A program made the position numbers and the translations under genes. A stretch of 55,638 nucleotides of DNA from contig JAHBVV010000039.1 in assembly GCA_019637335.1 (NCBI GenBank), forward strand, positions 1 to 55,638. The letters are read 5' to 3'. This document shows, in pieces, positions 17,141-55,132 of the stretch (positions are counted from its first letter, which is position 1; every line of letters begins with the position of its first letter). The notes under the pieces are model-generated. The model ran no database searches. It had not been told where the DNA came from and saw nothing but the letters and a program-made list of their open reading frames with translations. This DNA comes from Candidatus Hydrogenedentota bacterium. GTDB lineage: Bacteria; Hydrogenedentota; Hydrogenedentia; Hydrogenedentales; JAEUWI01.

Positions 17141-17169
17141 CTTTGTGCTCTTTGCGCTCTTTGTGGCTC
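17141..17169 (+). repeat. Three-unit repeat, CTTTGYGCT type
   Basis: Three tandem units, CTTTGTGCT, CTTTGCGCT and CTTTGTGGCTC. The last unit carries the extra G that also ends the other sites of this family. A two-unit relative, CTTCGTGCC followed by CTTCGTACT, lies at 17265-17282. Confidence 0.65.
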
Positions 17170-17436
17170 CCAATCCAATCCCCCGCGCGCATAGACATGG
17201 CATCCCTACCCGGATCGCCTCCCTGCACCTTGGCAGGGAAAACTACCCTTCAAAAACTTCCTCTCTTCGTGCCCTTCGTACTACTATCCGTTATCCGTCA
17301 ACTTTTTGTTTTTTCTGCAAGTTCTTCCATTCAAAATCCATATAACCAACTGTTGTAAAAGAATTTACGAAGCGAAAGCTCCAGGGAGAATTTCCAACGG
17401 CCGTTCCGCAGGTTTCGTGGTCGAAATTCTTTTCTT

Positions 17437-17464
17437 GCCCACGGATTACACCGATGACACGGAT
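17437..17464 (-). repeat. Three-unit repeat, ATCCGTG type, inverted copy
   Basis: Read on the minus strand the 28 bases are ATCCGTGTC, ATCGGTGTA and ATCCGTGGGC. This is an inverted copy of the site at 17610-17637 and has exactly the same length (9+9+10). The two copies therefore form an inverted pair around about 145 bases of non-coding DNA. Confidence 0.7.
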
Positions 17465-17609
17465 TGAAGCGACACTCGAACCAAACAAGAAGAAGCAGCC
17501 CGCCAACCAATCAACCCCGCTACAATTCCGATGCTGAACAATCCGAACCGGCTGCGTCGAAAAATCGCGCGCCGCCGCCGGCATGCATCAACGACCGGAA
17601 CCAATTGCT

Positions 17610-17637
17610 ATCCGTGTCATCCGTGTCATCCGTGGTC
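17610..17637 (+). repeat. Three-unit repeat, ATCCGTG type
   Basis: Units are ATCCGTGTC, ATCCGTGTC and ATCCGTGGTC. It pairs with the inverted copy at 17437-17464. The nearby site at 17675-17704 follows the same plan with ATTCGTGTGT, ATTGGTGTCC and ATTCGTGGTC. Confidence 0.7.
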
Positions 17638-17674
17638 ACAAATCCTGATCGCGGCCAGTGGCCGCTCGAGGCGC

Positions 17675-17704
17675 ATTCGTGTGTATTGGTGTCCATTCGT
17701 GGTC
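17675..17704 (+). repeat. Three-unit repeat, ATTCGTG type
   Basis: Three units of ten bases: ATTCGTGTGT, ATTGGTGTCC and ATTCGTGGTC. The first word is repeated in each unit but differs from the word used by the neighbouring sites, while the closing GTGGTC is shared with the ATCCGTG site. Confidence 0.65.
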
Positions 17705-17755
17705 AAAAACGCACCCTCATTCAACCAACTACTTCATCTGCGTACAAGAGCCATC

Positions 17756-17783
17756 CTCTGCGCTCTCTGCGTTCTCTGCGGTT
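17756..17783 (+). repeat. Three-unit repeat, CTCTGCG type
   Basis: Units are CTCTGCGCT, CTCTGCGTT and CTCTGCGGTT (28 bases, 9+9+10), followed by AAAA. It has the same length and the same extra G in the last unit as the ATCCGTG sites. Confidence 0.7.
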
Positions 17784-17801
17784 AAAACCTTCTCTGTTTC
17801 T

Positions 17802-17932
17802 CTTCGTGCCCTGCGCCCTTCGTGGTGATCATTTCTTTGGTTGCGGCCCAAGGTTGCCCTGCGACCTTCGTGGTGATCATTTCTTTGGTTGCGGCCCAAG
17901 GCGGCCCTGGGATCTTCGCGCCCTTCGCGGTG
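17802..17932 (+). repeat. CTTCGTG repeat cluster with 48-bp direct duplication
   Basis: It opens with CTTCGTGCC, CTGCGCC and CTTCGTGGTG. A 37-base sequence beginning CCTTCGTGGTGATCATTTC then occurs twice without mismatch, at 17817-17853 and 17865-17901, giving a 48-base period. The cluster ends with a two-unit version, CTTCGCGCC and CTTCGCGGTG (17914-17932). The duplication looks recent because the two copies are identical. Confidence 0.75.
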
Positions 17933-18235
17933 ATCTCTCGTCCCGTTCCGTGGAGCGACCGCCGAATCTCCAACTTCCAGTTACCGCGCAGAATAGAATC
18001 ACGCGCACATGCCAAACCGACCCATAAGTCGGAGCACGATACGTATTCCCACGGTCCTGTGGGCTTTGATCGGACGGACCCAACGGGTGTCGGGCATCAA
18101 TAAGTAGTCACATCTGACAACCAATCGATAGGAAAATTCGGGGATCATTAGCATTTCTGACCAACTAGAGTTCACATTTGCACTTGATTAGGGTCCGCGT
18201 CGTTCGTATGGATCGGTTTTTGTTATCCGATGGTC

Positions 18236-21445: not shown

Positions 21446-23127
<1,682 letters not shown>

Positions 23128-54765: not shown

Positions 54766-54999
54766 CCCCCAGGTGGGGACTGGCTCCCGAGCAATAATCA
54801 CCCAGGCCGCGTAAGCGGTAAAGTGCACCCCAAAGCGAGGGCGCCCCCAGGTGGGGACTGGCTCCCGAGCAAAAATCACCCAGGCCGCGTAAGCGGTAAA
54901 GCCCACCCCAAAGCGAGGGTGCCCCCGGGTGGGGACTGGCTCCCGAGCAAAAATCACCCAGGCCGCGTAAGCGGTAAAGTGCACCCCAAAGCGAGGGTG
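54766..54999 (+). repeat. Three 78-bp tandem repeats
   Basis: Copies are 54766-54843, 54844-54921 and 54922-54999, in perfect register. They differ at a handful of positions (for example GCAATAATC against GCAAAAATC, GTGCACC against GCCCACC). Each unit holds CCGC-GTAA-GCGG and, in the last two, CACCC...GGGTG hairpins. Length divisible by three keeps reading frames open on both strands. Confidence 0.9.
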
Positions 55000-55132
55000 C
55001 CTGTACCCGCAGATAAATAACTATATGACCATATACATACCGTTACCTATTTATCACACACAGGATCGGTGTCGGGCCTTGACGGAAACGAGCCTCCGGT
55101 ATTGACGAAACGTGGATATTCAAGGCTCCAAT

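Follow-up and report, generated by a model that had tools for sequence, protein, structure and literature searches.

In the REP/REPIN-RAYT systems (PMC3733652, PMC3116915, PMC2817692, PMC8266576), palindromic intergenic elements without a gene are present in many copies, and a small resident gene, less frequent than the elements, is presumed to act on them in trans; one genome can contain several families of differing sequence. REP sequences are by definition palindromes of 20–40 bp that are tagged at one end with GTAG or CGTC (PMC3733652). MITEs are gene-less, abundant and share terminal inverted repeats with gene-bearing relatives. A different outline is found in the 23S rRNA intervening sequences with S23p (PF05635), which are selfish-looking units of about 430 nt with one small ORF and inverted ends; the Coxiella member of this family, which is cut out by RNase III, has heptamers arranged in tandem (PMC4990558). 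Finally, TAACTGA-type heptamer repeats occur in intergenic DNA of distant phyla as two to six short tandem copies of one spacer-free 7-nt word, to which no gene has so far been linked (PMC4679880).

The repeats described here were examined in a stretch of 55,638 nt (contig JAHBVV010000039.1 of assembly GCA_019637335.1, Candidatus Hydrogenedentota bacterium), which we call the window. They resemble REP/REPIN-RAYT in their many gene-less copies, in a rarer small gene that may act on them in trans and in the several families per genome. However, they lack a GTAG or CGTC tag, their ends reading CCAC...GTGG around tandem words; their arms consist of such rhyming words with free spacers; and the protein linked to them has a predicted PD-(D/E)XK fold rather than the Y1 HUH fold of RAYT. 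RAYT was rejected as their owner on grounds of adjacency: none of the 12 Y1_Tnp genes in this genome has a site at a distance of 1.5 kb or less. The repeats are MITE-like in being gene-less, of high copy number and apparently nested, and gene-less hairpins have terminal inverted repeats and words in common with cassettes that carry a GxxExxY gene. In contrast to MITEs, the ends are arrays of variable words and the linked protein is no known transposase. Inspection of 20 cassettes by eye revealed no target-site duplication, the intergenic DNA of congeners being too diverged to fix the junctions. Compared with the 23S intervening sequences, the proteins are unrelated, the period is 9–10 nt instead of 7, and the window array is intergenic instead of lying in 23S rRNA. 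Many words, a 9–10-nt period, inverted pairs and a linked gene distinguish the repeats from the TAACTGA type. Overall, the system works like REPIN-RAYT and has the outline of the intervening-sequence cassettes, but by the criteria tested it is a member of neither. The linked protein and its co-evolving word arrays fit no known family that we found in the open-access literature, where searches on the motif, REP/RAYT and repeat topics returned no paper describing such sites.

In or just around positions 17141–17932, eight rhyming sites were found, one of them inverted (Table 1). The array is intergenic, with a cNMP-binding gene on one side and a PEP-CTERM gene on the other. An earlier note on this DNA had counted at least seven sites built on one plan and had recognized one as an inverted copy of another. 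Both observations hold, our count of eight including decayed sites, and the inverted copy is the left arm of the ATCCGTG hairpin, whose 145-nt loop is gene-free. The constant length of 28 bases that it had also described applies to sites with 10-nt units, but those with 9-nt units span 26 bases. Strict dimers (MTYYGYGNNMTYYGYGG) occur 4 times in the window as compared to 0.09 expected, and 0 of 100 shuffles reached 4; the array is far above chance. A connector, TGATCATTTCTTTGGTTGCGGCC, lies 3' of the CTTCGTG array at 17802–17825, with one further copy downstream. An Rfam scan of the array gave no match.

Table 1. Rhyming sites and composite repeat in the window.
Feature	Position	Strand	Remarks
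CTTTGTG/CTTTGCG (CTTTGYG) array, three units	17141..17166	+	complement CACAAAG; own 3' flank CTCCCAATCCAATCCCCCGC
Composite dispersed repeat	17262..17935	+	about 620–670 bp; holds most window sites
CTTCGTG array, two units	17265..17280	+	decayed; near left edge of composite
ATCCGTG hairpin, left arm	17440..17464	-	CACGGAT, CACCGAT, CACGGAT on + strand; inverted copy of 17610–17635
ATCCGTG hairpin, right arm	17610..17635	+	three identical units and closing G
ATTCGTG array	17675..17702	+	10-nt spacing; middle unit ATTGGTG
CTCTGCG array, three units	17756..17781	+	
CTTCGTG array	17802..17825	+	outer units intact, middle unit decayed
CTTCGCG array, two units	17914..17930	+	right end of composite

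A search with the window region recovered dozens of copies of the composite repeat in this genome, at about 75–91% identity, and no copy of comparable length in three congeners. The usual order of sites is ATCCGTG hairpin, ATTCGTG, CTCTGCG, CTTCGTG, often the connector, and CTTTGTG. Within this genome, the differing words mark fixed positions of one copied composite: words do differ from site to site, as had been claimed, but in the window this variety stems from the copying of a composite rather than from site-by-site rewriting. In the later copies, units drift independently of one another, and the words were already matched before the composite was copied. Two sister genomes (G035 and G037) have the same succession of TPR, cNMP-binding and PEP-CTERM genes, with an intergenic space of about 450 and 660 bp, respectively, compared with 1335 bp here. 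Given that these syntenic spaces are shorter and contain no rhyming site, the window array was most simply gained in this lineage. In some composite copies an ATTCGTG pair lies outside the ATCCGTG pair, which is the pattern expected from nested insertion. The array may have arisen by the nesting and chaining of gene-less elements, with five words among them, into a single composite, which would then have been amplified in this species only.

Sites of this kind were also sought beyond the window, and they are plentiful. Strict dimers number 311 in the 7.16-Mb genome versus 8 for the reversed pattern, and at least one match occurs in 67 of the 68 genomes searched in the phylum, several of them with counts only at control level. 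When species genomes were searched with a pattern anchored on ATCCGTGG, the matches listed came from many phyla, among them Planctomycetes, Verrucomicrobia, Bacteroidetes, Chloroflexi, Acidobacteria, Hydrogenedentota, Poribacteria and others. Three ATCCGTG words at 10-nt spacing were found in 48 stretches of viral contigs, as compared to 0 for the reversed control; IMG/VR contigs, filed as viral, hold many such sites (L051–L098, L231–L463). Across phyla, the simplest elements are divergent pairs of the form AACCACGGAT NN CACGGAT NN CACGGAT, followed by an unconserved loop of about 11–130 nt and the reverse-complement plan. Two divergent arms make up the basic unit, and in each of them a 7-nt word occurs about three times, with 2–3 free bases between copies. 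Among adjacent sites less than 150 bp apart in the species-genome loci, 29 pairs are divergent and 2 convergent. Two loci from Anaerolineae (Chloroflexi; L165, L169) have head-to-tail arrays rather than inverted pairs, with ATTCGTG or ATCCGTG sets linked by GGTTGCACA or GGTGCA.

A comparison of coordinates first pointed to PF13366 (GxxExxY) genes lying between arms. The flanks of 30 such genes contained inverted rhyming arms at nearly all, with a word that varies by gene. Inverted arms exceeded the 99th percentile of shuffles at 149 of 185 GxxExxY genes (81%), namely 73/93 in the phylum itself and 76/92 in other groups (50 genomes); the remaining 36 had no arms. In controls, 13 of 300 random windows and 2 of 12 Y1_Tnp genes were positive. 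The modal layout has 3+3 (six) units, the best lag is 9, 10 or 8 nt in 215 of 241 arms, and the arms point inward rather than outward in 32 of 149 cases. Since the 50 outside genomes were chosen for carrying ATCCGTG sites, the presence of the gene in 43 of them is a biased frequency; the arm test, which considers only gene surroundings, is less affected. In the reverse direction, 3.6 Mb of loci, mostly chosen by word, contained 6 GxxExxY ORFs, and all 6 lie within 250 bp of a site.

These cassettes span about 430–660 bp (median arm to arm, 493 bp) and have GxxExxY as their sole gene. Typically, a 7-nt word (on one strand, C[A/G]C..A.) is repeated about three times with 1–3 free bases between copies, and the gene and an inverted array follow. 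A named example of the linked gene is on the Bacteroides finegoldii plasmid NZ_OY725952.1, and a GxxExxY gene with a different word was found in Chryseobacterium. Two cassettes from different phyla, represented by an Abyssobacteria record (L590, G113) and a Poribacteria record (L594, G099) are 78% identical over 436 bp, and this homology runs from outer arm edge to outer arm edge, where the flanking DNA becomes unalignable. In a second pair (L611 and L649), homology likewise stops at the outer arm edges. In Sphingomonas parapaucimobilis NZ_CP155749.1 (L691 1437–1902), fabD and fabG flank a GxxExxY gene at distances of only 33 and 2 bp, and a CGCGAAG-type array is present on the upstream side of this gene only.

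NCBIfam names the family GxxExxY (TIGR04256/PF13366); scores of 148, 134 and 126 bits exceed the curated cut-off of 35, and the GxxExxY genes of this genome score 86–145 bits against a cut-off of 22. The predicted structure (pLDDT 91) has the PD-(D/E)XK, restriction-endonuclease-like fold. Structural neighbours include SSO0001 (Z 10.1), 3ijm, itself restriction-endonuclease-like (Z 8.0), and Hjc (Z 7.2); the best are SSO0001 and the Holliday-junction resolvases, with middling scores. Asp69 and Lys81, conserved in the alignment, would suit a putative nuclease active site. A sequence search of the PDB returned no solved relative, and PADLOC gave no match for three of the proteins. The family receives a passing mention in PMC8934634, and we found no account in the open-access literature of its role or of a link between arms and gene. 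In GxxExxY proteins beside ATCCGTG arms, DPK replaces the ELK/EVK motif (L196 4870–5148, L134, L140).

The identity of the word follows the protein. Mapped onto a tree of 124 proteins, the word requires 51 changes, compared with 80.7 (sd 2.1) after shuffling, and its last letter 10, compared with 46.3 (sd 2.2). Host group changes 30 times versus 41.6 shuffled, and arm orientation is near random (19 versus 21.4). These data indicate joint inheritance of word and protein together with frequent movement between hosts, and do not in themselves imply direct contact. A tree-independent test of residue-base pairs, whose power was too low, gave nothing significant. In the present genome, four of the five GxxExxY genes carry or adjoin window words. 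CTTCGTG arms flank C26:52648 and ATTCGYG arms flank C52:8371; C1:933597 is enclosed by CTTTGCG hairpins, and C3:318584 is adjacent to an ATCCGTG hairpin. The fifth, C8:32833, has none of the window words; AGGGACCTG-like direct repeats are found upstream of it (L695).

Comparison within the genus provides a further view of this association. Between the same pair of genes lies an orthologous cassette whose word is CGCGAAT in this genome, and in G035 all six of its units read CGCAAAT. G035 contains 54 dimers of ATTTGCG, of which the other three genus genomes have none, and dimers of ATTCGCG number 55 here, 44 in G035, and 0 and 0 in the remaining two; as these counts are of overlapping dimers, the sites are fewer. 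Dispersed copies of the new word thus occur only in the genus genome whose GxxExxY cassette has it. At a CTTCGTG locus, the gene is present in this genome and in G035, a gene-less hairpin occupies the site in G037, and neither is found in G036.

We propose that the sites are the ends of GxxExxY cassettes and of gene-less derivatives, with words recognized by the cognate protein, and we regard this explanation as probable. The assignment of the arms as ends of cassettes and derivatives is well supported. Putative recognition of the word by its cognate protein is likely in view of their covariation, and it is plausible that the protein moves its own cassette. A GxxExxY protein would bind its own word with one subunit per unit, about one helical turn apart. 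All units would then change together when specificity changes because each is bound by one subunit. Nuclease activity of the protein could move the cassette and, in trans, gene-less hairpins too. With such a link, a likely owner can be assigned to the repeats and a likely substrate to the GxxExxY protein. The sites recur through Planctomycetes, Verrucomicrobia and neighbouring phyla, and the large natural set of matched protein-word pairs makes recognition by a tiny nuclease-like protein testable.

More tentatively, these elements could represent a new class of mobile cassette, in which the tandem words at the two ends are read by a PD-(D/E)XK-fold protein some 120 residues long and word and protein co-evolve. 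The number of private words in a genome would then approximate that of its GxxExxY paralogs, each with its own gene-less population, and the unrelated PF05635 proteins would follow the same plan with 7-nt words. PF05635 four-helix-bundle genes had been meant as a negative control, and inverted arms were detected at 24 of 28, with a best lag of 7 in 44 of 46 arms and a word that differs per locus. In the light of this finding, heptamer arrays previously observed in bacteria may be part of a second family of the same design. Words at these loci (L494–L523) include GGGTCTA, AGGCTTT, AATTGAC, CGGGTTC and others; one flank (L506) includes GGGTTTA units resembling the plant telomere repeat.

PF05635, the second small-protein family with tandem arms, occurs in 23S rRNA intervening sequences, and one of these is cut out by RNase III (PMC4990558); inverted arms, moreover, can pair word to word. 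Both points would fit an alternative in which the arms act in RNA, the transcript folding into a stem of short helices that the encoded protein binds or cuts, and the elements spread via an RNA stage. We consider this unlikely, as spacers are non-complementary between arms, pairing does not call for three equal words per arm, both arm orientations relative to the gene occur, and the predicted fold is that of DNA nucleases.

It is quite doubtful, too, that the hairpins came first, as host or selfish sites, and that GxxExxY genes are passengers inserting in or between them. Such an order of events would account for the great excess of gene-less hairpins over intact cassettes (311 dimer places versus 5 genes in this genome), for the gene-less hairpin in G037 where two congeners hold the gene, and for genes that lie beside a complete hairpin and not inside it (L475, L530). 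On the other hand, the word tracks the protein across hosts, homology between cassettes spans arms and gene together, and a new word is dispersed only where a cassette has it.

A related question is why words match within a site. The earlier note had held that identical words inside sites and different words between them are not drift of one ancestor, and had named either a process that rewrites all units together or selection on the triplet form as the cause. The first statement is borne out, most directly by the orthologous CGCGAAT/CGCAAAT locus. Words and spacers were compared at sites in which the third unit was fixed and the first two were free within 16 words. The units co-vary, all three being equal at 56 of 103 ATCCGTG, 85 of 111 CTTCGTG and 50 of 96 CTCTGTG sites. 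Equal 2-nt spacers were observed at 15 ATCCGTG sites (8.8 expected, a weak excess), 16 CTTCGTG sites (17.1 expected) and 15 CTCTGTG sites (19.3 expected). Given that slippage or conversion would copy spacers too, near-chance matching in two of the three word sets favours selection on the word. Of the two proposed causes, selection is therefore preferred and copying of whole units disfavoured. Selection for one reader per site is the favoured explanation of the difference between words and spacers. In one unit survey, units were picked by likeness to the word, which biases its unit-identity figures upward, and the argument is carried by the spacer and tree tests instead. Homogenization by slippage or gene conversion between neighbouring units without selection, although short tandem repeats in general evolve so and the 2-nt spacers of gene-bearing arms are slightly more alike than random (0.42 versus 0.34), is very improbable in view of these spacer counts and of a word match that spans both arms across the gene and tracks the protein tree.

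The window contains two further repeats of other kinds. A 78-bp unit is present three times at 95% identity near the window end (54766–55001), and the hexamer GGCGAA occurs 13 times in tandem at 22925–23002, either within an ORF that has a beta-helix match or close to where this ORF ends.
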